64,000 bases of DNA, taken from NCBI GenBank assembly GCA_030611885.1, contig JAUWOY010000002.1, positions 1-64,000 of the forward strand, written 5' to 3'. Position numbers and translations under genes: made by a program. The notes beneath the pieces were generated by a model. That model worked only from the letters and a program-made list of their open reading frames with translations. It was not told where the DNA came from and did not search any database. Positions 7,518-55,068 of the stretch are shown one piece after another. Numbering within the stretch: the stretch's first letter is position 1; the number at the start of each line of letters is the position of its first letter. This stretch comes from Chloroflexota bacterium. Lineage in GTDB: Bacteria; Chloroflexota; Anaerolineae; VGOG01.

Positions 7518-9194
7518 ATGCTCAAGTCTATGAACGAGCCTGCTAAATCCTCCCCCCCAAAGTTGGGGGGGACCGAGGGGGGGCTGCCCTCTCCATTACA
7601 CACCGACGACTTGCTTGACCTCATCGCCCGCCTGGGCGATGAGCAGCGCTATCAACTCCGCCAGATTGAACTGGCATACAATCTCGAGACCGAGTATCAC
7701 GTTTCGGCCTTGCGTGGGCTGATTGACCAATACCACTACCGCTTGTCGGCGCAGAGCGTGGGCTCGGTCAAACAGGTGGGCGATGGCGTGGCTATCGTCT
7801 CTGGTCTGCGCGGCGTGATGGCGGACGAGCTGGTCCTGTTCCCCGACGGCACTTATGGTCTGGCGTTGGATCTCGATCACAACTACGTGGGCTGCGTGCT
7901 CCTGGGGACTGACGAGAACATCCACGCGGGCGACATTGTGAAAGGGACAGGGCAGGTGATTGACGTGCCGGTGGGCGAACCGCTCCTGGGGCGCGTGGTC
8001 AATGCGCTGGGCCAGCCCATTGACGACCTGGGGCCGCTGGAGGCCCCAGAGAAGATCGTGCGTCGTCCCATAGACTACCGGGCGCCGACCTTCATCCAGC
8101 GTGCGCCGGTCAGCGAGCCGCTGCAAACTGGCATCAAGGCCGTTGACTCGGTCATCCCGTTGGGGCGCGGGCAGCGCGAGTTGATTATCGGCGACCGGCA
8201 GATCGGCAAAACCGCCATCGCCGTTGACACGGTCATCAACCAGCGCGACCAGGGTGTCACCTGCATCTACGTTTGCATCGGGCAGAAGATGTCTACCGTG
8301 GCGCAGATGGTGGAGACGTTTCGTGAACACGACGCGCTGGACTACACCACGGTCGTGGTCGCCAGCGCCGAGGAACCGCCCTCGATGGCCTACCTGGCTC
8401 CCTATGCTGGCTGCGCCATGGCCGAAGCATTTATGTACGCTGGCCGGCACGCGCTGATCATCTACGATGACCTGACCAAACACGCCATCGCTTACCGCCA
8501 GCTCTCACTGCTACTCCAGCGACCGGCGGGACGTGAGGCTTATCCGGGCGACATCTTTTACCTCCACTCGCGCCTGCTCGAACGCGCTGCTCGTCTCTCT
8601 GCCGCGCACGGCGGGGGGAGTATGACCGCCCTGCCCATCGTCGAGACCCAGGCTGGCAACATCGCGGCCTACATCCCCACTAACCTCATCTCCATCACCG
8701 ATGGGCAGATTTACCTGACCACGCAACTCTTCAATCAGAACATCCGCCCGGCCATAGATGTAGGGCTCTCCGTCTCCCGCGTGGGCGGCGCAGCGCAGAA
8801 CAGCGCCATGCGCGCTGTGTCGCGCCACCTGGCGCTGGACATCGCCCAGTTCCTCGAACTGCAGATCTTTGCCCGCTTTGGCACCGAGCTGGACAGAGCG
8901 ACGCGCGAACAGTTGGCGCGCGGCGAGCGGGTGCGCGCGATCTTGACCCAACCCCAGTACGAGCCCATGCCGGTCGCGCACCAGGTGGTCGTCATCTATG
9001 CCGCCGGGCAGGGCTACCTGGACGACGTTCCAGTCGAGCAGGCGCGCCGTTTCGAGACGCTTTTGCTCAAATTCTTGCAACAGCAATGCTCCGGCCTGCT
9101 GGCCGAGTTCTCCACCGGCCACTGGAACCCCAACCTGGAGACAGACCTACGGAACGCGCTGGAGCGTTTCAAGGAGCAGGTATGGCATACGTAG
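7518..9194 (+). CDS. atpA: F-type ATP synthase alpha subunit
   Basis: GDRQIGKTA P-loop, full-length alpha homology. Confidence 0.95.
   Translation: MLKSMNEPAKSSPPKLGGTEGGLPSPLHTDDLLDLIARLGDEQRYQLRQIELAYNLETEYHVSALRGLIDQYHYRLSAQSVGSVKQVGDGVAIVSGLRGVMADELVLFPDGTYGLALDLDHNYVGCVLLGTDENIHAGDIVKGTGQVIDVPVGEPLLGRVVNALGQPIDDLGPLEAPEKIVRRPIDYRAPTFIQRAPVSEPLQTGIKAVDSVIPLGRGQRELIIGDRQIGKTAIAVDTVINQRDQGVTCIYVCIGQKMSTVAQMVETFREHDALDYTTVVVASAEEPPSMAYLAPYAGCAMAEAFMYAGRHALIIYDDLTKHAIAYRQLSLLLQRPAGREAYPGDIFYLHSRLLERAARLSAAHGGGSMTALPIVETQAGNIAAYIPTNLISITDGQIYLTTQLFNQNIRPAIDVGLSVSRVGGAAQNSAMRAVSRHLALDIAQFLELQIFARFGTELDRATREQLARGERVRAILTQPQYEPMPVAHQVVVIYAAGQGYLDDVPVEQARRFETLLLKFLQQQCSGLLAEFSTGHWNPNLETDLRNALERFKEQVWHT
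7549..7584. repeat. G/C-tract palindromic element encoding SSPPKLGGTEGGLP
   Basis: tcccccccaaagttgggggggaccgaggggggg read directly; compare 81-114. Confidence 0.75.
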
Positions 9195-14704: not shown

Positions 14705-14808
14705 GAGCAAGGGCTGAGCCCACCGTCGCCGCCGGTTATCGTGCTTTTTTCTAAGGCGCGATGGCCGGCGGGGTGCTGTACATTCAGGCCCATCGTGCAA
14801 GTGCTTAC

Positions 14809-14850
14809 GTTAAACCCGCGTGCCGCCGAGCTCTGGCGCGATGGTTTTTT
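14809..14850 (+). other. Degenerate attC right-half relic
   Basis: acgttaaacccgcgtgccgccgagctctggcgcgatgg resembles acgttaaacccggcggcggctgagctccagtccgttagg of attC 21804-21933. Confidence 0.35.
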
Positions 14851-14861
14851 GTTATGGATAA

Positions 14862-14935
14862 TACCCCAAATTGGGTGATTAGGTGGAAAAATGTCCGCCC
14901 ATTAGGCGGCACTCAGCCACTTGGCACAACTGAGT
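14862..14935. repeat. Palindromic unit (ccccaaattgggtgattaggtggaaaaatgtccgccca...) shared with 52690-52855
   Basis: Direct comparison. Confidence 0.6.
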
Positions 14936-14961
14936 TGGGCAAAGAGGTGAGGAGGTGAATC

Positions 14962-15615
14962 ATGAACGCCCTCGTGGTTGTTGCACACGATGACGATGCT
15001 GTCTTGTGGATGGGAGGCACTATCTGTCATCTCAGCGATTGGAATTGGCACGTAATTTCGATGTGCAATCAGCGCAATGATGTACGTAGACGTTATTTCG
15101 AAGAGACATGCAGCAAGTTAGGCGCGAGGGCTTATGCCTTCGATTTTTTTGACTATCAAGACAGCAATGCGGCAGCTATGAGGAATTCTATTTCTGACAT
15201 GAAGCAAACCCTACTGCAGGTTGCGGGAGCGATGAAATACGACTATGTTTTTACCCACAGCCGCGACCCAAATGGAGAATACGGACCCCATGCCAACCAC
15301 CACGAGGTTTGTGGGGTGGTAAGATCATTGGTCTCTGAAGGTCAATTGGTTGAGAATAGAAATAGGCTTGCTTACTTCTGCTATTACCCGATCTATGGAC
15401 TGAGTGGTCGTGGCACTGTGGCAAGACAAGATGCCCACTATTACTTCCAGTTGACCTATAGCGACTTAGCCTTAAAAGTGGAGTTGATACGGTCTCATAC
15501 AACGGCCATTGTGAATAACCTTGAACGTGATTTAGGTGCGCCGTGTCCTAATCCGGAGGCTTTTGAAGGAGACGAACTGAGTTTGCCACACCCATTCATA
15601 GAGAGGCATGGGTAG
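14962..15615 (+). CDS. PIG-L/LmbE-like deacetylase
   Basis: MNALVVVAHDDDAVLWMGGTI N-terminus and HANHHEV motif. Confidence 0.75.
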   Translation: MNALVVVAHDDDAVLWMGGTICHLSDWNWHVISMCNQRNDVRRRYFEETCSKLGARAYAFDFFDYQDSNAAAMRNSISDMKQTLLQVAGAMKYDYVFTHSRDPNGEYGPHANHHEVCGVVRSLVSEGQLVENRNRLAYFCYYPIYGLSGRGTVARQDAHYYFQLTYSDLALKVELIRSHTTAIVNNLERDLGAPCPNPEAFEGDELSLPHPFIERHG

Positions 15616-15644
15616 CCGCTCGAATAATTTAAGGAGGTAAGAAG

Positions 15645-15933
15645 GTGGATTGGGTAGGACTGGCAATCAATATGGTCGGCCTCGTCTGGGCATACTTTGG
15701 GTACAAGCAGAACGAAGAATTAAAGAGATTAATTGTCACCGAAAAGAATATGATTCGCGATAGGATACTGGATTATGAGACAGACTTTGAAGTCGCGCCG
15801 GGATCAGATTCTCGCCGATAGGGAGGCTTTTGACGACCCCAAGCGAAACCAAGTCCAAATTAGAATCGAAGACCTTGAGGGGATGATGGAAAACCTCCAG
15901 AGCTTTGCTGACCGATTGCAGGAGCCCAAATAA
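15645..15933 (+). pseudogene. Small single-TM/coiled protein ORF broken by a frameshift near 15790-15820
   Basis: GTG start with strong RBS; frame 1 VDWVGLAINMVGLVWAYFGYKQNEELKRLI...DYETDFE then shifted frame LKSRRDQILADREAFDDPKRNQVQIRIEDLEGMMENLQSFADRLQEPK*. Confidence 0.4.
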
Positions 15934-16021
15934 CGCACCTTGGGCGAATAAGGCCAGGCAGCACCTTTAGGACTCGTAATCCTTGGCATTGGTGTAGGTT
16001 GGAATATGCTCAGCCAGTGCC

Positions 16022-16150
16022 GCCTAACCAGTCGCTGGTGTGCCCTGCTAAGCTGTCGCCTGCAAGCCGGGAGCGATTACACATTCGTGGTGATACTCAG
16101 TAGATTGTAGGAGCTCGCAGTGGATCGTCAGATTCGCTGTCTAGTTGCTG
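16022..16150 (+). other. Candidate degenerate attC-like site
   Basis: GCCTAAC at 16022, poorly conserved R' (GTTGCTG) at 16144; length 129 bp. Confidence 0.35.
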
Positions 16151-16171
16151 GATAGACGGAGGTGAAAGGCA

Positions 16172-19009
16172 ATGATTGTAGCCAACTATGATAGATCATG
16201 GGGTTACCTTTCCCATGAGCATAGGAGACTGGATGAAGAAGTCCAGCAGTTACTAAACAATTACGCGACTGGGCTACTAGAGGATTTGGCGTATGCCATT
16301 ATCGGAACGTATGGCGTTGGGAAAACCCAGTTTCTCTATCACGTTCACCAATGCGCCCTTAAAAGAGATATTGTTCCCTTGTACTTCCTTGCAGAAGATT
16401 TGTTTAGGGAAGTAATCACCGATGATGGCGAGGCATGGCTACCTGGGACTGTCTATAGTCTTATTGAAGGGAAAATCTCACAAGTACTGGATGGTCTATC
16501 CAACAAAGACGCTTCAGAGATTGGGAGGATCTTGGATCCTAGAGGAAAAATGAGGAAAGACTCCCCAAGAGTAATTGCGGAGGTCATAGACAAGTTCTCA
16601 GGAAGAGACTGCCAGAACATGCCAGTCCTATTGCTAGTTGATGAGTTGGAGGGTCAATATGGGATTCTTCAAGAGAAAGTCGAGACAATGGATAGAAGTC
16701 CTCTGCGAGACTGGCTTGAAAGTAGAACTCATCTTAAGTTCTTGGCGTTTGCCCCTGCTGGCATCTATGAACTTGGCGGTGCAGATAGGGGCCGAGTTAA
16801 GAGAAAGGTAATACCCCCCGCAGATGTCAAGTTCGTGCGAGACGCACTAATTGGAGATGCAGGTAGAAGCAATGCTTGCTGGTGGCTTTCCCGAGGGAAA
16901 GCGAGGCAGCTTTTCAAGACAGCTGAAACCCTTGAAAGATTGGGGAGTGAGCACATTCAAGATGCAGCAAGGGCCTCAAGAGTCATAAAATTAGAACTCG
17001 ATCCGATTGGTCAGCCACCGACGGAAGTACCACCAGCAGTTACAGACAAGATAAGTCCTTCAAAAATCCCCTTCTTGCTGAACCTAGCACCTATAGCCGG
17101 AGGAGGCAAAAGACAGTACATCATTGGGGTCCAGAGATTGGATACTGGAAAACTTGCCGAGAAGCTGATAGATGCGTTTGGGATAGGAAAGGACAATGCA
17201 ATACTAATCTCTGAATATTTCAAGAGGACGGTGAGTGCTCTATCTGATGCCGAATGGCTCACATACATCGATCAGGAGGATTTGCCAGAATTGTTCTGTC
17301 TTGTCTTGGACCATTTTCTTGAATACGAACATGGAAGTCCAGAGCTCTCAGAGACGTTCGGAGAAATACTAAGCCTATACGAAAGAAGTAAAAAAGAGCC
17401 TGCGGGAATGTATGGAACTATTGGAACATTGTGGGAACTAAGAGAATCTAAGTTTCAGTTACCACTCTCAGTAGAAGAAATACGAGAAGCATTCCCGTTT
17501 CCAACAATGAACCCAATGGTGAAGCATTATGTACCAGGTGAGATGAAGAAGCAATGGGAAGGGCGAGACTTACCTTTATGGAAGTGGGCAGAGGGGAATG
17601 TGACCATTCTCTTCTTTGCTTCAGCAAGAGATTTCGCAGCATATTTGGATACGGATGAATTCCTTTCGTCGTCTTTACCAGATGGGAAAGGGGTTTTGTC
17701 CCTTCTGCCATACGGAGAGGATTTGAAGAAAGAAGAACGGAAGCCTCTTTTCAGGTGGTTGGAGGAAAATGGTAAACTAAAAGTAATAAAGCTACAGCAT
17801 TTGCTCACTGACTTCCTGTTTAGTGCTTCAGGAGAACTTGCTGATATTCCAGGGAACCTGGACGAGACCTTGGAAGGTTTCAGGGAGGACAAAGGAGATA
17901 TTCTGCTGTCACGCAAAACGGAGATCTATTACAAAGCTCTGTGCGATACAACGAAGGACGAACTACCCAGGCCCAGGGTGATTTATAGAGGAGATCCCCC
18001 AGATGCTGCTACTGTGTGGGGAAAAACTCAAATGGGACATAGATCGATTGCGGTGAGTGGAATTGCTTTGGCATTCTATACTCTTAAACCAGAAGAACAA
18101 AACCTTCTGGTCAGCTTAAGAGAGCTTTTCAGAGGCGGTAAGGAAGGTAGAGGCATAGCTGATCTCCGTCATTTAATCTCTGGCAGAGGGGCCCCTGGCA
18201 GGGGAGGGCACACAAGGCTGCCGGATCGTCTATTACCGTATAGTGAAAAAGGAACCGGGATAAGAAACACAGAATACGTAGAAAGATTGAGATCCTATTG
18301 GCGGAGTGAGGAGATGGACAGGTTAGTGAAACTAGCGCGTATCCTTTCTCTCAATGACTTCTTGAAACTGCACCAGGACGAAGACGTAAACAGATTGCTT
18401 GAAGCTCTTTGGAGAAGCGTGAGAAAAGACTTTGAAGCAGAGGATTTAGACGTTTTCATCGCGGAACTGGAGCAGAACATTATCCCCGTTCTGCAGGACT
18501 GCCAGGTGTTGGATGAACAAGGGAGCGACTTTGACTTAAGTGGAATTGATTTTGGCGATTATGAGCGGCTAGTGAAATCTCTTCAAGGCTTTGAAAAGTT
18601 TTTGGAAGTGGTCAAGGCATCAGTTGAAGCTTCTCCCCTTGTTCACTCCATTGTATCAATTCTTGCTGAGACAATAACTGATATCGATGGTAACATAAGA
18701 ACTCTGAATGACTTGTCTAGCAAAGCCAAAAGGGCGATAGAGGATCTCAAAGAATCTGCTCAGTATCTAAAAAGAAACTTCTGGGAGTATGAGAGAGCTG
18801 TCAAATTCATCGGGCTAGAAGAGAAGGATATCAAGCAGATTATAGAGGAGAAACTGCGAATGAGTGGCACCCCTGACTTGCAAGCACTGGAAGAATCAGC
18901 ACGAGAGAGGAAAGGGTTCCTAGATGATGTCTCCACGTCACTCTCAAAATTAGATCGCAAATTGAGGGATTTAGGGGATTGCTTCGCAAGCATGAGAGGA
19001 GTTGAGTAA
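16172..19009 (+). CDS. Large P-loop ATPase of unknown family
   Basis: Walker A GTYGVGKT, Walker B PVLLLVDELEG; C-terminal coiled coil; AT-richer than flanks. Confidence 0.8.
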   Translation: MIVANYDRSWGYLSHEHRRLDEEVQQLLNNYATGLLEDLAYAIIGTYGVGKTQFLYHVHQCALKRDIVPLYFLAEDLFREVITDDGEAWLPGTVYSLIEGKISQVLDGLSNKDASEIGRILDPRGKMRKDSPRVIAEVIDKFSGRDCQNMPVLLLVDELEGQYGILQEKVETMDRSPLRDWLESRTHLKFLAFAPAGIYELGGADRGRVKRKVIPPADVKFVRDALIGDAGRSNACWWLSRGKARQLFKTAETLERLGSEHIQDAARASRVIKLELDPIGQPPTEVPPAVTDKISPSKIPFLLNLAPIAGGGKRQYIIGVQRLDTGKLAEKLIDAFGIGKDNAILISEYFKRTVSALSDAEWLTYIDQEDLPELFCLVLDHFLEYEHGSPELSETFGEILSLYERSKKEPAGMYGTIGTLWELRESKFQLPLSVEEIREAFPFPTMNPMVKHYVPGEMKKQWEGRDLPLWKWAEGNVTILFFASARDFAAYLDTDEFLSSSLPDGKGVLSLLPYGEDLKKEERKPLFRWLEENGKLKVIKLQHLLTDFLFSASGELADIPGNLDETLEGFREDKGDILLSRKTEIYYKALCDTTKDELPRPRVIYRGDPPDAATVWGKTQMGHRSIAVSGIALAFYTLKPEEQNLLVSLRELFRGGKEGRGIADLRHLISGRGAPGRGGHTRLPDRLLPYSEKGTGIRNTEYVERLRSYWRSEEMDRLVKLARILSLNDFLKLHQDEDVNRLLEALWRSVRKDFEAEDLDVFIAELEQNIIPVLQDCQVLDEQGSDFDLSGIDFGDYERLVKSLQGFEKFLEVVKASVEASPLVHSIVSILAETITDIDGNIRTLNDLSSKAKRAIEDLKESAQYLKRNFWEYERAVKFIGLEEKDIKQIIEEKLRMSGTPDLQALEESARERKGFLDDVSTSLSKLDRKLRDLGDCFASMRGVE

Positions 19010-19011
19010 AA

Positions 19012-20040
19012 ATGGAAGACTTGGGCGACGTCATTCAAAGGAAAACTTGGACTGTAGAGGAATTCTTGTCACAACTGGATGAATTGGAGGAAGACGCAAA
19101 GAGATTATCCCATGAAGAAAGAGAGAGAATCCCTGAATTCTCAGGCGATTGGTCGGAAAAGAGCGTGAGGAAGCATCTTAGTGAGGTAGCAAGGGCAGTT
19201 AAAAATCCGATCAAATTCAAGAATAAAGAAAGACTAGAGCAGATAGGTGTAAGAACGGACGGGATAGCCGATGATGTCTTGGGAGATACTTCCGGACTTG
19301 ACAAGGTAGTGGAACTGTTCCTCGAAGTAAGAGAGATAAGTGAATCCTTGATGCCTGGAGACTATCTGGCAATCTGGCTTAAAGAAGGAACAGAGAGTGC
19401 TAGACAGAAGCTTGAGGAAGTTGTGAATGCGAAACCAGCATTCGAGCGCGTACTTGGAAGCGAGGTTATTGAAGAACTTGGATCGGAGCTTTTAAGACGG
19501 TCAATGGAAGATGTCAGCTTCCTGAGTGAGGCTGAGACCGCAATTTTGAGATTCACACGGTTAGATGGTTTCGGGGTTGTACTAGATTGGGGGAGTGATT
19601 CCGATGAATTCCTTATCGGCCTCAAAGAATCGTGGAATGGGATTCAGCGAATTCAGGAGGAATACGGGGTTTCACGAGAAGAAATTCAGGAAGTATTAGG
19701 TGGCGAGACACTGCTGGAAACAAGTAGTCTACTGGAGAAAATGGACCAGGAATACTCAGAGAGAAAGAGAAAGCTGTCAGAGGAGTGGCAGACATACGCT
19801 ATTACCTTGGAATCACTTGGCGAAACAGTATTGGAACCTCCTGAAACCCTTGGAGAGCTTGGAGAGGCCATTGAGAATCTACGAAATGAGTGTCTTGAGC
19901 GTTTGGGAGAATCAGGCCTCAGCTTGCTTAGATTTATAAAGGGAAAGGATGAATTCCCAGACATCGGGATAGAGGAAATCAAAAAAGCCTTGGAGGCACT
20001 CCGTCCTTTCTTCTTGAAGTCATTGACGGAGGTAAGCTAG
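19012..20040 (+). CDS. Coiled-coil-rich protein of unknown function
   Basis: 2-nt gap after ATPase gene; Glu/Lys-rich helices. Confidence 0.75.
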   Translation: MEDLGDVIQRKTWTVEEFLSQLDELEEDAKRLSHEERERIPEFSGDWSEKSVRKHLSEVARAVKNPIKFKNKERLEQIGVRTDGIADDVLGDTSGLDKVVELFLEVREISESLMPGDYLAIWLKEGTESARQKLEEVVNAKPAFERVLGSEVIEELGSELLRRSMEDVSFLSEAETAILRFTRLDGFGVVLDWGSDSDEFLIGLKESWNGIQRIQEEYGVSREEIQEVLGGETLLETSSLLEKMDQEYSERKRKLSEEWQTYAITLESLGETVLEPPETLGELGEAIENLRNECLERLGESGLSLLRFIKGKDEFPDIGIEEIKKALEALRPFFLKSLTEVS

Positions 20041-20436
20041 ATGCCAGAAGTGAGAGAAAGGGACGTTTATAATGCCCTTTTGAAGTTCAAGGGCGAAGGC
20101 TCTATTGAGATAGGAGAGGCTGAAATCCGTCTCTCCCTGGCACCTGTAGACGTTCATACTGTTGGTAGACCTGACAGCATCTTATGGCTTGAGGTTTCAT
20201 TAGGCTTATTCGGACAAGACCTGAAGCTTCGAATTCCAGTTCCAATAGAGGCTGAAAAGAATGGTATTGCAGACGCGATGGACGACCTAGAGGGATTTGT
20301 CGCGAGAGGTCAGTATATCGCTGAGATACCCATGTTGGTTGTTGCTGAAGCAGGATATGGAAGGAGAGAAGTGCGTAGAGATTTTCCCGTGGAATTTACG
20401 CTAACTCAGATTCCTGTGAGGCGATTAAAGGAGTAG
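20041..20436 (+). CDS. Small protein of unknown function
   Basis: Begins on the base after the preceding stop; 131 aa. Confidence 0.75.
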   Translation: MPEVRERDVYNALLKFKGEGSIEIGEAEIRLSLAPVDVHTVGRPDSILWLEVSLGLFGQDLKLRIPVPIEAEKNGIADAMDDLEGFVARGQYIAEIPMLVVAEAGYGRREVRRDFPVEFTLTQIPVRRLKE

Positions 20437-20446
20437 ATAGACCGAA

Positions 20447-20971
20447 TTGAGAATAGTAAGAAGTGTAACCCAGGATGAGGTTTGGGATCATTGGTTCAGA
20501 ACTGAGAACTATGGATGTTATAAACCTTTGACAGGTGAGAGCTTGAAGCAGGAAATTGAGAATTGGCGTTCTGACATAAAGTCGCCCTTGCCTTCCGATA
20601 CCCGTTGGCATGAAGCAGTGATTGAACAGGCGGATGTGAGCCGTCTCTTCATTATTTCTTCTGACGATTGGGCTGACATATCAGGATACACCTTTTTGGT
20701 GAGTTTCGTTGCTGAAAATCTAAACGCTGCATTCTCCAACAAGGGTAGCGATATAAAGAAAAAGCTATCTTTTCTGGAGAGTGGTGGTGCTCTTGATACA
20801 AGGCTTATCCTTGTGTCAGATAAGGTTTCCGGTCCGTTTACGGTAATAGAGGGTAATCGACGAGCAGTGGCGCTACTGTGTTTGAATAAGTTGGTTGAAA
20901 CAAGGATCTATCTCGGAATTTCAAGGGGGATTACGGACTACGTTTGGTCAAGGTATGCGTACAGGAGTTAA
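20447..20971 (+). CDS. ParB/Srx-like domain protein (TTG start)
   Basis: GPFTVIEGNRRAVALLCLNKL resembles ParB-like GNRR motif. Confidence 0.6.
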   Translation: MRIVRSVTQDEVWDHWFRTENYGCYKPLTGESLKQEIENWRSDIKSPLPSDTRWHEAVIEQADVSRLFIISSDDWADISGYTFLVSFVAENLNAAFSNKGSDIKKKLSFLESGGALDTRLILVSDKVSGPFTVIEGNRRAVALLCLNKLVETRIYLGISRGITDYVWSRYAYRS

Positions 20972-21129
20972 GCATGCGAGAGGATGAGAAATCTCGCAGG
21001 CTCAGTTGGTTAGCACCCCATCGCAGCTTATTGGGAGGGTCAAGCTAATTCCAAAGGGAAGCCGACTCCTCCCAAGTCGCAGACCTGTAAGCGACTTGCT
21101 GAAAGAAGGATACCGCAGGGATCCTGGGC

Positions 21130-21260
21130 CGCTAACACGTCGCTGCAGCCGACTGTGCTATCGAGTATCCTGTTGAGGGCGCGTCGCCTTTGCAGCGCTT
21201 CAACTCAAGTATCGGCACACTGCGGCAGCCGCAAGGCGGCTTAGCTCGGGGCCGTTAGGC
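21130..21260 (+). other. attC-like site (131 bp)
   Basis: CGCTAAC-ACGTCGCTGCAGCCGAC ... GGCGGCTTAGCTCGGGGCC-GTTAGGC. Confidence 0.75.
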
Positions 21261-21353
21261 CGCTTCCCACGAATTGGCATTATCTACTCTTGCGACGTAT
21301 CTTGTAGGTAGTCTCCCGCTCTCGTGTTGTAAGGCGGTTGGGACTACCCATAA

Positions 21354-21752
21354 ATGGATGCAGAATTCATAGCAAGGAGAATGAAGATGCAAACTGTCAA
21401 ACAAGTGCTAAAACCAGACTGGAGAAAGCTTTTTCTGTTTGCCATCTTCACCTCAATAGCGGTAGGCGGCAAGATTCAGGCGTGGGCTTTCTCTGATGTG
21501 CCTCCAAAGCCCCCTCTCTATGATTTATTGCGGCCCTTCCCCATCTGGCCAATGTGGATGTTTCTACTGATGCCTCTCGCCTTGTTGACTTTGCCTCTAA
21601 GGTTCATCGGCCTGGATGTGATGGCTGGCCCTCCTTGGTTGTTTGTGGTAGCCAACATAATCTACTTTTACTTGCTCTCTTGCCTGATAATTACTGGTTT
21701 TGACAAATACAAGGCCAGATTTGGAAGATCACGAGAAGAAATGACAAGATGA
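21354..21752 (+). CDS. Small membrane protein, cassette gene
   Basis: Three hydrophobic segments; lies between two attC-like sites. Confidence 0.6.
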   Translation: MDAEFIARRMKMQTVKQVLKPDWRKLFLFAIFTSIAVGGKIQAWAFSDVPPKPPLYDLLRPFPIWPMWMFLLMPLALLTLPLRFIGLDVMAGPPWLFVVANIIYFYLLSCLIITGFDKYKARFGRSREEMTR

Positions 21753-21803
21753 CATTCATGGAAGCAGGGAAGATCTTAGATGATTTCGTGATTTGGCACA
21801 GTG

Positions 21804-21933
21804 GCCTAACAAGTCGCTGAAGCCGACCTGCTAATCGGGAGTCAAACTGTTGCCTGTCTTGGTTGTGTGTCGTCTTTCTGATTGTTGGGCACAACGTTAA
21901 ACCCGGCGGCGGCTGAGCTCCAGTCCGTTAGGC
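21804..21933 (+). other. attC-like site (130 bp)
   Basis: GCCTAAC-AAGTCGCTGAAGCCGACC ... GGCGGCTGAGCTCCAGTCC-GTTAGGC. Confidence 0.85.
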
Positions 21934-21968
21934 CGCTTCTGACCGATGATTGAGGACAGGGAGGAGCA

Positions 21969-22730
21969 ATGAAAAGCACCAAGATAGAGATTGACCTGCC
22001 ACCGGTTTCGGTGATAATTCCTGCCTACAATGAGGAGAGGTGGATTGAAACGACCATTTCTTCCGTTTTGGAAAGCGGTTTTCCCTGCGAGGTAATCGTC
22101 GTTGACGATGGTTCAACGGACCGAACTCCCCAAATTATCAGAGGTTTTGGGACGGAAATCAAAGTCATCACCCACCCGGTCAATAGGGGCAAGGGAGCGG
22201 CAGTTGTCTCAGCGCTCCAAAAGGCATCGGGGGAGATTGTGGTTTTCTGCGATGCTCATCTATTGGGCTTGAATCGATACCATTTGTTGACTTTGGTCTT
22301 ACCGCTGATTTACAGTTCGGCCAAGGCGGTCTTGGGCGAATGTGTGCCGGAAGAGTTCTCTTTAGCCCGTGCTTTCTCTCCCACCATGATTTTGACAGGT
22401 CAGCGAGCCTATTACAAAGAAGACTTGCTGCCTTTGGCAAAAGAGATGGAAGGACTCGGTTACGGGGTAGAGACGTTTCTATTCAATCGGTTTCCTCGAG
22501 ACAGGACGGCGGTTGTTTTGCTTCGGGGAGTAACGCATCTGATAAAGAAGGATACTTCCTCTCCCACGGCTGCCACACTTGCCTATTTGAGGGAGGTGAA
22601 GGAAATTCTTGAGACGCTGGTCAGCATTGAAGGATTAGCGCCCAAAGAACTGAGGCAATTGAAAAAGATGGTTTCCTCACTGCTAGCTAAATATGGGGCC
22701 ATCGTTGAAAGGAGCGGGAAAGCGGCCTAA
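21969..22730 (+). CDS. Family 2 glycosyltransferase, cassette gene
   Basis: VSVIIPAYNEERWIETTISSVL...VIVVDDGSTDRT; stop codon lies inside attC R''. Confidence 0.85.
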   Translation: MKSTKIEIDLPPVSVIIPAYNEERWIETTISSVLESGFPCEVIVVDDGSTDRTPQIIRGFGTEIKVITHPVNRGKGAAVVSALQKASGEIVVFCDAHLLGLNRYHLLTLVLPLIYSSAKAVLGECVPEEFSLARAFSPTMILTGQRAYYKEDLLPLAKEMEGLGYGVETFLFNRFPRDRTAVVLLRGVTHLIKKDTSSPTAATLAYLREVKEILETLVSIEGLAPKELRQLKKMVSSLLAKYGAIVERSGKAA

Positions 22731-22856
22731 CCAGAGCTTGCACCTGACGCGGCTGAGCTGCGGCCCAATTGGAAGCCGCACCCGCTTTGAGGGTAGCTTT
22801 TAGGCGAGGGTGATTTCCACGCACCCGCGCGGCGGCTGAACCCGGGGCCGTTAGGC
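22725..22856 (+). other. attC-like site (132 bp)
   Basis: GCCTAAC-CAGAGCTTGCACCTGACGC ... GGCGGCTGAACCCGGGGCC-GTTAGGC. Confidence 0.85.
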
Positions 22857-22885
22857 ACGCGAACCCAAGGAAGGGAGATATTGTG

Positions 22886-23254
22886 ATGGCAAATACATTT
22901 GGTTGGATTGAAATAAGGACGAGGGACATAGAAACAACGGCAACCTTCTACGAATCCTTGTTCGGCTGGAAAGTAATCGAAAAAGAGACAGCAGACGGCT
23001 TTGATGTCTGGATTTTTGATACGGGCGGTGAGCCGCGTGTCCAGAACCTTCGGAGGGGAGGAATATGGCTCAGACCCGAGGGTGAACCTCTCGGTGTAGT
23101 CGTCTACATCGAGGTGGATGATATCGAGACCGTTCTAAAGAAGGTGGCAGAGCTAGGGGGGAAGGTCGTCGCCCCTAAGACTCCACAGGGCTCTTCTTAT
23201 AGGGCATATTTCACCGATCCCAGCAGCAACATGTTTGGACTCTGGCAGGAGTGA
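22886..23254 (+). CDS. VOC (glyoxalase/bleomycin-resistance) family protein
   Basis: FGWIEIRTRDIETTATFYESLFGWKV...YFTDPSSNMFGLWQ. Confidence 0.85.
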   Translation: MANTFGWIEIRTRDIETTATFYESLFGWKVIEKETADGFDVWIFDTGGEPRVQNLRRGGIWLRPEGEPLGVVVYIEVDDIETVLKKVAELGGKVVAPKTPQGSSYRAYFTDPSSNMFGLWQE

Positions 23255-23318
23255 ATTGTTGGCCGATGCTGCTTCGCCCTTGAGCCACGAATCAACAAAC
23301 TTTTGAACGAGGAGCAAT

Positions 23319-25826
23319 ATGGCAGGAGACAACGGAAACGAGGATCTGCGCATCGGCGTCTATGTCTGCCACTGCGGGACCAACATCGCCGGGGTCATTG
23401 ACCCAGCGGTCGTGGCCGAATATGCGGCGGCGCTGCCCGGCGTGGTCCGCGCGGTCGCTACGCCTTATGCCTGTGCGGACAGCGGCCAGTCTGTCATCAA
23501 AGAGGACATCGAAAAGTATAACCTGAACCGGGTGGTGGTATCGGCCTGCTCGCCGAAAATGCATGAGCCGACCTTCCGCGCCGTTGTAGCCGAGGCCGGG
23601 CTCAACCCGTTCTTGATGGAGATGGCCAACATCCGCGAGCAGTGCACCTGGGCGCACGGCCACGACCCCGAAGGCGCCCTGACAAAGGCCAAGCACCTGA
23701 CCGCCGCTGCCATCGCCAAGGCCGCCTTTCTAACACCGCTGGACATGGTTAAGGTGCCCGTCACCAAGCGGGCGATGGTCGTCGGCGGGGGCGTGGCCGG
23801 CATCAGCGCTGCGCTGGACCTGGGCGACCAGGGGATCGAGACCATCCTGGTGGAAAAGCAGCCGACCATCGGCGGGGTCATGGCGCAGCTCAACAAGACT
23901 TTCCCCACTATGGACTGTAGTATATGAATTCTCGCCCCCAAGATGGTTGACGCGGCGCGTCACCCCAAGGTGGATGTGAGAACGTATACTGAAGTCGAGC
24001 GAGTGGACGGCTTCGTCGGCAACTTCAAGGTGCTGCTGCGCGAAAAGTCCCGGTACGTGGACGCGGATCGCTGCAACGGCTGCGGCGAGTGCGCGCCGGT
24101 CTGCCCCATCGAAGTCCCCAACTATTTTGAGATGAACCTGGCGCCGCGCAAGGCAATTGACGTGCCGATGAGCCAGTCGGTGCCTCTCATCTACAACATT
24201 GACCTCGACGCCTGCATCCATTGCTACAAGTGCGTCGAGGCGTGCGGCAAGCTGGAGGCCATTGACTTTAGCCTGGAGGATAAGCTGGTCTGGGAAGACA
24301 TCGGTGCGATTGTCGTCGCCACCGGCTACAGTCACTTTGACCCCAGCGTGATGTCCGAATACGGCTACGGTCGCTACCCCAACGTGATCACGGCCATAGA
24401 AATGGAGCGGCTGAACAACTCGGCCGGGCCGACCGCCGGGAACCTGATTCGTCCCGGCGATGGGGCTAACCCCAGGCGGCTGGCCATCATCAACTGCGTC
24501 GGTTCCCGCGACAAACGTTTCAACCCCTGGTGTTCGAACTTCTGCTGCATGTACGCCATCAAGAACGCCGTGCTCTTGAAGCAGGCCTATCCCGACATGG
24601 ACATCACCATCTACTATATAGACATCCGCACTCCCTCCAAAGGCTACGAGGAGTTCTACAACCGGGCGCGCGAGATGGGCATACGCTTTACCCAGGGCCG
24701 TCCCAGCCTGATCACCGAAGACCCCGAAACGGGCAATCTTTTCGTTCACTCAGAGGATATGGCACTGGGTCAGGTGATTGAGCGCGAGTACGACATGGTG
24801 ATGCTCAACCAGGCCGCGGTGCCGCAGCCCGATGCCGATGCGATGAGTTCGGTGCTCAACATCAGCCAGAGCCCTGGTGGCTGGTTCATGGAATATCACC
24901 CCAAGCTGCGCCCGATTGACAGCCCCACCGACGGGATTTCCCTGGCCGGCGCGTGCCAGGGGCCCAAGGACATCCCCGCCAGCGTGGCCCAGGGGTCGGC
25001 GGCGGCGGCACGGGCCGGGCGCGTGCTCCACTCCGAAGAGTGGGAGATCGAACCCACCGTGGCCTACGTCTGGGAGGACCGCTGCATCAGTGCCCAGGGC
25101 AAGAAGTGCGGCATCTGCGCCAAGGCCTGCCCTTACAACGCTATCGAGTACGAGCCGGGCAAGCCGGCCAAGGTGATCACCGCCAAGTGTCACGGCTGCG
25201 GCGCCTGCGTGGCGGAGTGCCCTCACAACGCCATCACCCAGTTGCACTTCACCGACGCCCAGATGCTGGTCCAGATCCATGCTCTGCTGGCCGACAAACC
25301 GGAGGAAAAGATCCTGACCTTCCGCTGCAACTGGTGCTCCTACCCCGGCGCCGACCTGGCTGGGACCAGCCACTTTGAGTACTCGAGCAATGAGCGCGGG
25401 CTTCGCGTGATGTGCGCAGCCCGTATGGACTCCGACTTTGTCTACGAGGCTTTTCGCCTGGGCGCGGGCGCGGTGCTTTACTCCGGCTGCCACGAGCAGG
25501 ACTGTCACTATATCACCGGTCAGCCAGTTGGTGCCAAACGCGCCCAGCGGCTGCTCAAACAATTCAACAAGATGGGCATGACGCCCGGCCGGTTCCGCAT
25601 CGAGTGGGTCAGCGCAGCCGAGGGCGACAAGTACGCGCGGGTGCTCAACGAGATGCAGGCCACGCTGGACTCGATCCCCCAGGAGCAATTGCTTGAGGAG
25701 ATCGAGCGGCTGCGCCCCCAGATGGAGAAACGCGCGCGCCGGATGCGTGAGGCGCCGCAGGTCGAAGACGCGCTGGAGTACGCGGATCGCCTCACGGCAG
25801 CGATGACGAAGGTCGAGCAGGCGTAG
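23319..25826 (+). CDS. hdrA: Heterodisulfide reductase subunit A fused to MvhD-like domain; probable selenoprotein (in-frame TGA 23925-23927)
   Basis: GVYVCHCGTNIAGV start, FPTMDCSI-TGA-ILAPKMVDAARHP read through in one frame, C-terminal MvhD domain (FRCNWCSYPGADLAG...). Confidence 0.85.
23943..23967 (+). promoter_or_regulatory. Candidate bacterial SECIS hairpin
   Basis: ggttGACGC-GGC-GCGTCacc: GACGC/GCGTC stem, GGC loop at 23954-23956, 27-29 nt after the TGA. Confidence 0.55.
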
Positions 25827-38224: not shown

Positions 38225-38286
38225 ATTTTGGATACCTTTTCGGCGTGGTCAGAATTTGGCCTGAGAGGGTGAGGAATGTCCAGCCG

Positions 38287-38418
38287 CACTAACGGCTCGC
38301 GGTTCAGCCGCTTGGCGGTTGCGGCGTGAGCACCGTCGCCAGAAAGTGAACTAAAATGCGGGTGAGAAACTTGAAAAGCGCGCCGATTAGCCAAGTCGGC
38401 TGCAACCACTTGTTATGC
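38287..38418 (-). other. attC-like site (132 bp)
   Basis: On minus strand GCATAAC-AAGTGGTTGCAGCCGAC ... AGCGGCTGAACCGCGAGCC-GTTAGTG. Confidence 0.8.
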
Positions 38419-38457
38419 CGCCTTTCACCTTGAAAGCGTAAAACGTTTCACGCTGAT

Positions 38458-38998: not shown

Positions 38999-39026
38999 TT
39001 TCTTGTCCTCCTTCTGTATCCGAAAT

Positions 39027-39149
39027 GGCGGTAACGCTCAAGCCCCCCGCAACGGCACGCTCCGAAATGATAGCGGTGTTGCCTTTAGCCGACCAACTGC
39101 AACAGAAAGCCGCGCGCGTGCCGTTGTCGGGGGGTGGGTGTTTACCGCC
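39027..39149 (-). other. Candidate divergent attC-like inverted repeat
   Basis: Minus strand ggcggtaaacacccaccccccgacaacggcacgc / gcgtgccgttgcggggggcttgagcgttaccgcc; 123 bp. Confidence 0.45.
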
Positions 39150-40306: not shown

Positions 40307-40386
40307 GTTTTGCTCTCCTTTCTCTTGCGCCGCTTAGCGACTGATAAAGCGGGATGGCGGTAAACGCTCGCTTCACGCAACTGGCG

Positions 40387-40393
40387 GCATAAC
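40387..40393 (-). other. Candidate attI recombination point (GTTATGC, followed by CGCC)
   Basis: Lies between intI remnant and first cassette gene. Confidence 0.4.
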
Positions 40394-40468
40394 TATTTCT
40401 TATACGGAATCTGTCTTCCCCCGCTATTTCGGTACCTTAGACGGAATCCGCCTAAACAATCCACAGGG

Positions 40469-40497
40469 TTGCATTTACGGAAATCCTCTTGTATAAT
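40469..40497 (+). promoter_or_regulatory. Putative PintI promoter (TTGCAT-N17-TATAAT)
   Basis: Hexamers and 17-bp spacer read directly; faces intI remnant. Confidence 0.6.
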
Positions 40498-40591: not shown

Positions 40592-40795
40592 ATGGAACCA
40601 AGACCCAAGAAACTCCTCGATCAGGTCCGTGACGCCATCCGCCTCAAACACTATTCCATTCGCACCGAGCAGGCCTACATCGGCTGGATCAAACGCTACA
40701 TCTTCTTTCACGATGTCCGCCATCCGGCCGAAATGGGCGTTGCTCCAGGCGACGGATTTGATAATCCGTCGCGAGCGAGAGAATGTCACCGCTGA
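40592..40795 (+). pseudogene. 3'-truncated integron integrase (tyrosine recombinase) N-terminus
   Basis: KKLLDQVRDAIRLKHYSIRTEQAYIGWIKRYIFFHDVRHPAEMG closely resembles the IntI N-terminal domain; catalytic domain missing. Confidence 0.8.
40749..40772. repeat. Perfect 10-bp-stem hairpin at the intI truncation point
   Basis: gcgacggatt-tgat-aatccgtcgc. Confidence 0.85.
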
Positions 40796-52689: not shown

Positions 52690-52855
52690 TGTTAGGCGGA
52701 CGAGATTTCCGCCTAATACACCCTAGAGGGATGGCTATGTGGACAAATGTCCACCTAATATGCCAGATTGGGGATATATGTGGAAAAACGTCTGCCTAGT
52801 ATCCCAAATCGGGTGACTAGGTGGACAGATGTCCAGATATTAAGCAGTTGGGCGG
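52690..52855. repeat. About four tandem ~41-45 bp palindromic units (gtggacaaatgtccacctaatatnccanattgggnnata)
   Basis: Read directly; related copy at 14862-14935. Confidence 0.7.
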
Positions 52856-52879
52856 CAAGTAACCAAGAAAGGAAGGTAG

Positions 52880-53626: not shown

Positions 53627-53701
53627 ATACGTCAGGCGGCGACTTATTGTGCGGTGATTACTTGTGTTCCAAACAACCTTTTCGGCTTAAAGCAAAGTGC
53701 C

Positions 53702-53827
53702 GCCCAACAAGCGGTTGCAGCCGACCGCCTTCGGCGCGGTATATGTGTGCCGCGAGCCAGCCCGCGCTTTGGTTTTTGAAGGGAGTCTTGCCAGAGTCGG
53801 CGGCGGCTGAACCGCAGACCGTTAGTG
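53702..53827 (+). other. attC-like site (126 bp)
   Basis: GCCCAAC-AAGCGGTTGCAGCCGACC ... GGCGGCGGCTGAACCGCAGACC-GTTAGTG. Confidence 0.8.
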
Positions 53828-53908
53828 CGGCTCAGTATCATCGAACAAAAGGTTCGCCACTGAACAAGTTTCGCGCCATCGAGCACTGATCAAAGAAAGG
53901 AGGCTACG

Positions 53909-54499: not shown

Positions 54500-54595
54500 G
54501 GACTCCGACACTGCCAAACTATAGTTGTGCCATATGGCACAATCTAGGACTTGCACGTCACTACATCAGTGGTATTGAATTCGCCGTAGAGAGCC

Positions 54596-54726
54596 GCCTA
54601 ACATCCATTGGAGCCGACCCGGCCCTTTCGCGGCTCCCAATCAGCTTGCGCTAGCGGCGTTGGGCGTAGGTTGAGTGCTCTTTGGTTATCGAGGTCCGGG
54701 CCGGGCGGCTCAATTCAACGTTAGGC
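54596..54726 (+). other. attC-like site (131 bp)
   Basis: GCCTAAC-ATCCATTGGAGCCGACCCGGCC ... GGGCCGGGCGGCTCAATTCAAC-GTTAGGC. Confidence 0.85.
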
Positions 54727-55068
54727 AGACTCGAAGCCCGTTTGAGCGGCGCAAAGCCGACCGTGAGCTTTCTGTCTCCAAGCGTCCTCGGACGCCCAAC
54801 CGAAAGAGCCGCCCTGTGATCAGGGCGGCTTTGCTTTTGGCCCACCGTGGCAACGCCGTCTTTGGCCGCTGTTACAGAGGCCGACGATCTCCTCACCCAC
54901 CACCGCCAGCAGGTTCAGTTCCGGGCGAAAGCGGGGCAGGTTGGCCCAGTGGAGCCAATCTTCCATATTTTGTCAAATGGCGGAAAAGTGATATAATGCA
55001 GTTACTTTGATCCCGGTGGGATGATTGCCCTCTTGGAAGTTAGGTGAAGAGGGGGAGGAGTAGAGACA

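Follow-up and report, generated by a model that had tools for sequence, protein, structure and literature searches.

A probable integron array without an integrase, inserted between two energy-metabolism gene sets in a Chloroflexota bacterium

In a 64,000-nucleotide stretch of DNA from a Chloroflexota bacterium (hereafter the window), a block of genes lies between the AOR-ferredoxin genes and hdrA (Table 1). The window lies on a 141-kb contig belonging to a 3.45-Mb metagenome-assembled genome (MAG), which is 93% complete with an estimated contamination of 5.6%. All block genes are on the forward strand, co-directional with the flanking operons: a PIG-L family deacetylase gene comes first and is followed by a four-gene operon, the gene of a 132-residue protein, a GT2 glycosyltransferase gene and a gene for a glyoxalase-fold protein. 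The deacetylase and GT2 functions had been assigned in a preliminary description of this DNA and are upheld by matches to PF02585 and PF00535. The 132-residue product, read there as a membrane protein, matches no Pfam or NCBIfam family.

Table 1. Coordinates of the features discussed in the text (positions within the window).
Feature	Position	Strand	Remarks
Inserted block between AOR-ferredoxin genes and hdrA	14736..23301	+	junctions approximate
Damaged attI-type leader, head of block	14864..14913	+	crossover GTT reads ATT at 14901
PIG-L family deacetylase gene	14962..15615	+	PF02585, E 5e-11
Claimed degenerate attC, R''-like left half only	16022..16150	+	unsupported
945-aa P-loop ATPase with C-terminal coiled coil, operon gene 1 of 4	16172..19009	+	Walker motifs by eye
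342-aa operon protein, no family	19012..20040	+	no Pfam, NCBIfam or PHROGs match
131-aa operon protein, no family	20041..20436	+	no Pfam, NCBIfam or PHROGs match
174-aa ParB-like operon protein	20447..20971	+	weak PADLOC matches, about 40 residues, E 3e-4
attC site	21129..21262	+	model R1, E 1.6e-7
132-aa protein gene (cassette)	21354..21752	+	open frame flanked by two attC sites
attC site, canonical fold with extrahelical base	21802..21935	+	model R1, E 9.7e-10; fold
GT2 glycosyltransferase gene (cassette)	21969..22730	+	PF00535, E 5e-29
attC site, crossover GTT is exchange boundary with UBA3071	22723..22858	+	model R1, E 5.7e-6
Glyoxalase-fold protein gene, last of block	22883..23254	+	PF00903, E 8e-14; common to UBA3071
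attC site, second array (murE locus)	38285..38420	-	model R1, E 3e-7
attI leader, murE-locus integron	40383..40490	-	GTT at 40393; rank 1 of 128,000 with core matrix
intI remnant, about 50 codons	40592..40740	+	TIGR02249 match; alignment to intact G002 intI
attI leader, third array, no integrase	52690..52860	+	GTT at 52847; rank 2 of 128,000 with core matrix
attC site, third array	53700..53829	+	model R1, E 2e-11
attC site, third array	54594..54728	+	model R1, E 2e-7

The four-gene operon (16172-20971) is possibly a new defence-type set, with an ATPase that has almost no relatives. The 945-residue ATPase falls into no Pfam, NCBIfam or PHROGs family, and no relative was found in 400 Chloroflexota genomes besides its own, in genome_contigs, or among viral contigs and plasmids; a single distant match, N-terminal and at 26% identity, comes from the end of a contig of genome G076, next to a transposase-like gene. 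AlphaFold models computed without an alignment are useless for this protein and for the 174-residue one (pLDDT 35 and 38). By analogy, the pairing of a coiled-coil P-loop ATPase with a ParB-like protein recalls defence systems; comparison with the known defence families of PADLOC gave no convincing match, the best E-values being 0.011 (ATPase) and, for a stretch of about 40 residues in the ParB-like protein, 3e-4.

DNA alignment with G002, a genome of the same family, stops at about 14736 and picks up again at about 23301. Four relatives, with DNA identities of about 73-90%, have the ferredoxin gene and hdrA side by side, and in a wider scan both genes were present at 51 of 58 loci. At 51 of 51 of these other Chloroflexota loci holding both AOR-ferredoxin and HdrA, -8 to 345 bp separate the two genes and the block is absent. 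The preliminary description had also judged the block AT-richer than its surroundings, in agreement with a GC content of 0.45-0.51 against about 0.60 in the flanks and with a drop in GC3 from about 0.8 (0.77-0.83 in the flanking genes) to 0.42-0.57. Comparative sequence evidence firmly identifies the 8.6-kb block as a genuine insertion between two energy-metabolism gene sets. The estimated contamination of the MAG might suggest that assembly or binning had joined unrelated pieces; such an artefact is highly improbable, since one contig carries both flanks and an independent assembly (L123) shows the same right junction. Scanning with HdrA gave Anaerolineae and Chloroflexi MAGs as the closest named relatives. 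The hdrA gene beside the block is split by an in-frame TGA (23909-23945, motif MDCSI-TGA-ILAPKM) at a position usually occupied by Cys in homologues, and the four relatives in which it adjoins the ferredoxin gene share this split; the product is probably a selenocysteine HdrA.

The integrase IntI recombines the folded bottom strand of an attC site with attI or with another attC, at G^TT. To search for such sites we used a covariance model, R1, built from eight sites outside the window: seven from integron loci of relatives and one from contig C97 of the same genome, where it adjoins a truncated intI gene. In the window R1 found six sites with E < 1e-5, the next-best match having an E-value of 0.14, and its background was low: across the 3.45-Mb genome 13 sites had E<1e-3, and the window accounts for six of them. 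Three of the sites are in the block, where they span 1.7 kb in the same orientation. Five had been proposed there beforehand. The three described as co-oriented attC sites were all recovered by this window-independent model (E 1e-9 to 6e-6), while the other two failed. A supposed degenerate site at 16022-16150 has an R''-like box without an R' partner; it is rejected as an attC, having a fold worse than that of shuffled sequences (z +1.62) and being absent from the R1 matches. A supposed half relic at 14809-14850, of which 27 nt are 81% like the right half of the 21.8-kb attC site, is not recovered by the model either and can also be read as a terminator-like stem with a T tract. The left part of the block (14.9-21.1 kb) has no attC confirmed by R1, and so may have joined by another route.

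The covariance match of the three sites is accompanied by weak plain folding of their bottom strands, which is mildly better than that of shuffles (z -0.9 to -1.7). The canonical fold appears only at 21802; the other two sites fold otherwise at minimum energy, yet fit the structure-aware model. The weight is therefore carried by the model and by synteny. A simple arm-matching script gave clear results only for the sites at 21804 and 54596, with 1-5 matches per shuffled window, and owing to this noise the covariance model was preferred. An Rfam search of the window returned no match.

The block starts with a damaged attI-type leader. Where relatives have an intact intI, repeated palindromes are often present in the DNA that separates this gene from the cassettes, and that DNA terminates in a core like ATAATCAATAGTTGGGCGGC. 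A core matrix was built from eight integrons with intact intI in relatives and scored at about 128,000 window positions; its two best matches are leaders at the murE locus and in a third array (Table 1). The 14.8-kb leader fails with this matrix and is homologous to the 52.7-kb leader. A second matrix, made only from leader cores outside the window and controlled with 20 shuffled windows, gave 45.0 bits at 52802 and 36.4 at 14864, against a shuffled maximum of 19.4. The 52.7-kb leader in turn matches the intI-adjacent leader on C97 (76% over 123 bp). The 14.8- and 52.7-kb leaders share the type of the C97 integron and differ in type from that at murE. Further copies occur at C59:27544-27829 and C40:15016-15072, and dispersed attI sites without an integrase were tallied at no fewer than four loci in this genome. 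The two independent matrices and BLAST clearly support homology of the block leader to the attI regions found beside intI genes. Its presence at several arrays possibly reflects duplication of the platform, or attI-containing cassettes.

Related attI leaders lacking an intact integrase are found elsewhere in this genome, as single copies in G001 and G055, and in four copies within 6 kb in G099. In the latter (L185, G099:C5:6000-20000) the attI-like leaders, at 7607, 9640, 11348 and 13513, each precede a different gene, and three of the four follow a repeated short C-terminal protein fragment; the stretch contains no intI and no attC detected by the model. In a literature search of limited coverage we found few papers on Chloroflexota integrons and none on the attI sites of Anaerolineae. 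As a speculative extension, dispersed integrase-less attI sites in Anaerolineae might act as landing sites and promoters for cassettes, with IntI supplied in trans, the spreading unit then being attI plus cassettes instead of a fixed integron; we regard this as possible and rather doubtful. A promoter-like site (Pc) is clear in the C59 copy and at 40.4 kb. Between 14.6 and 23.4 kb there are 10 promoter-like matches, against a shuffle mean of 8.4, and none falls in the 14.8-kb leader. With no convincing promoter of their own and an orientation shared with the flanking operons, the block genes are probably transcribed by read-through from the upstream operon.

Two additional attC arrays, absent from the preliminary description, lie in the window at 38.3-40.6 and 52.7-54.7 kb. 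In the first of them, at the murE locus, a deletion of about 0.8 kb has fused an intI remnant to murE. In genome G002 the corresponding position in front of murE is occupied by an integron with an intact IntI of 320 residues, an attI-like core, divergent cassettes and an attC site (G002:C212:760-894). With G002 intact and about 0.8 kb gone from the window, it was most likely in this lineage that the integrase of the murE integron was lost. The attC model missed a strong attC-like hairpin (39025-39149, z -4.79) with the unusual boxes GGTAAAC/GTTACC and an extrahelical base, which lies between two small genes of the murE array. Outside the window, a truncated-intI integron (L074, G000:C97:24099-25822) has an attC site and a leader of the 14.8/52.7-kb type; its IntI is truncated after about 158 codons, away from the contig end. 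Another cluster, with three attC sites on the minus strand, is located at G000:C48:59273-62159 (L169). No functional intI above the family cut-off is present in this assembly, and the interval from the ferredoxin gene to the 14.8-kb leader yielded no integrase remnant. The initial remark that no integrase is nearby accordingly holds for a working intI and misses the truncated one 17 kb away (40592-40740). The block is apparently one of several arrays from decayed integrons in this genome.

A natural comparison for the right end of the block is provided by contig DFBV01000232.1 (UBA3071; L123), where a glyoxalase gene matching at 85% also stands upstream of hdrA. Over the first 200 bp past the attC crossover GTT, the window and UBA3071 are 97% identical; before the GTT, identity is 66% in the attC site and 31% further upstream. 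In the position of the GT2 gene, UBA3071 has a different gene, whose product we read as a membrane protein resembling CPBP proteases. The change at the attC crossover is, on these alignments, the apparent footprint of a cassette exchange. Deeper inside the glyoxalase gene identity falls to about 80%, and a contribution from homologous recombination is therefore possible. The UBA3071 genome is apparently G055, which belongs to another family and has no close ferredoxin orthologue, and mis-binning of the contig is possible. The intI of UBA3071 itself seems to have an internal deletion, its N-terminal (1-70) and C-terminal (216-314) parts being adjoined (L135 and L137, G100:C272).

An ordinary horizontally acquired island with repeats that only resemble attC would suit the unconfirmed left half and the weak folding; it is scarcely credible given model E-values down to 1e-9 over a low genome-wide background, the attI leader and an exchange boundary placed at the crossover. 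The exchange could instead be taken as a sign that the array is still mobile, with cassettes exchanged in trans by an intact IntI that exists elsewhere in the cell or population and is absent from the MAG. UBA3071 differs in the cassette preceding the shared one, divergence past the crossover is only 3%, intact intI genes above the family cut-off occur in 17 of 60 relatives, and, the MAG being incomplete, one could be missing from the assembly. Against this stand the lack of an intact intI in this genome, the damaged attI of the block and a degenerate left part suggestive of age, and we consider continuing mobility a minority possibility.

The best explanation, to which we assign a probability of about 0.85, is that the block is what remains of an integron array in the chromosome, comprising a damaged attI-type leader and cassettes, with attC sites of ~130 bp surviving at three of the cassette borders and no integrase of its own. 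Cassettes would have been gained and swapped by IntI acting on folded bottom-strand attC sites, and the IntI gene would then have been lost or truncated, leaving the array mostly frozen and inherited as a fixed array. The CALIN-like interpretation given beforehand is supported by the attC model and by the non-syntenic position of the block, with a correction: the attI-type leader at its start favours reading it as an integron minus its integrase, not only a cassette cluster. Insertion of single cassettes at an attG-type site by IntI acting in trans, at a place that never had an integron platform, follows a described process (PMC12444791) and would explain the lack of an integrase remnant beside the leader. 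It would not bring in an attI leader of the intI-adjacent type, unless attI itself moved, and is unlikely.

CALINs are defined as at least two attC sites without an integrase (IntegronFinder; PMC9024848). The block resembles them in its clustered, co-oriented attC sites and in having no integrase alongside, the nearest intI-like sequence being the 50-codon remnant, and departs from them in its attI-type leader, in a half without confirmed attC and in the presence of several such arrays in one genome. Of the intI genes surveyed, about one third are pseudogenes, and the gene has been recorded in Chloroflexi (PMC2426708). In Xanthomonas, intI decay goes along with extra CALINs at other loci (PMC12444791). 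As in that sedentary chromosomal integron, an ancestral locus (murE in the present case) has an intI that is lost or truncated, cassettes are kept and CALINs lie elsewhere; unlike in Xanthomonas, at least two integron types have decayed in one genome and attI leaders head arrays without integrase. Attention has also been drawn to attI-derived sites in unusual cassettes of mobile integrons (Delta-attI-type; PMC12901181). These share with our leaders a location away from the usual intI-adjacent place; they belong to class 1/2 resistance integrons and have demonstrated activity, whereas the present sites are chromosomal, diverged candidates. CALINs are usually counted by attC alone. Here the repeats and core make the attI leader recognisable, a possible means of distinguishing decayed integrons from cassettes dispersed over attG sites, and a draft attI consensus for Chloroflexota is provided. 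The murE locus adds a clean before/after pair (intact in G002, deleted in this genome), and UBA3071 a natural cassette-swap comparison. By definition the block is a CALIN, and its most plausible origin is an integron whose integrase was lost. The kind is known, but the dispersed and attI-bearing form is unusual; what is less usual is that recognisable attI leaders head integrase-less arrays, and in such number.
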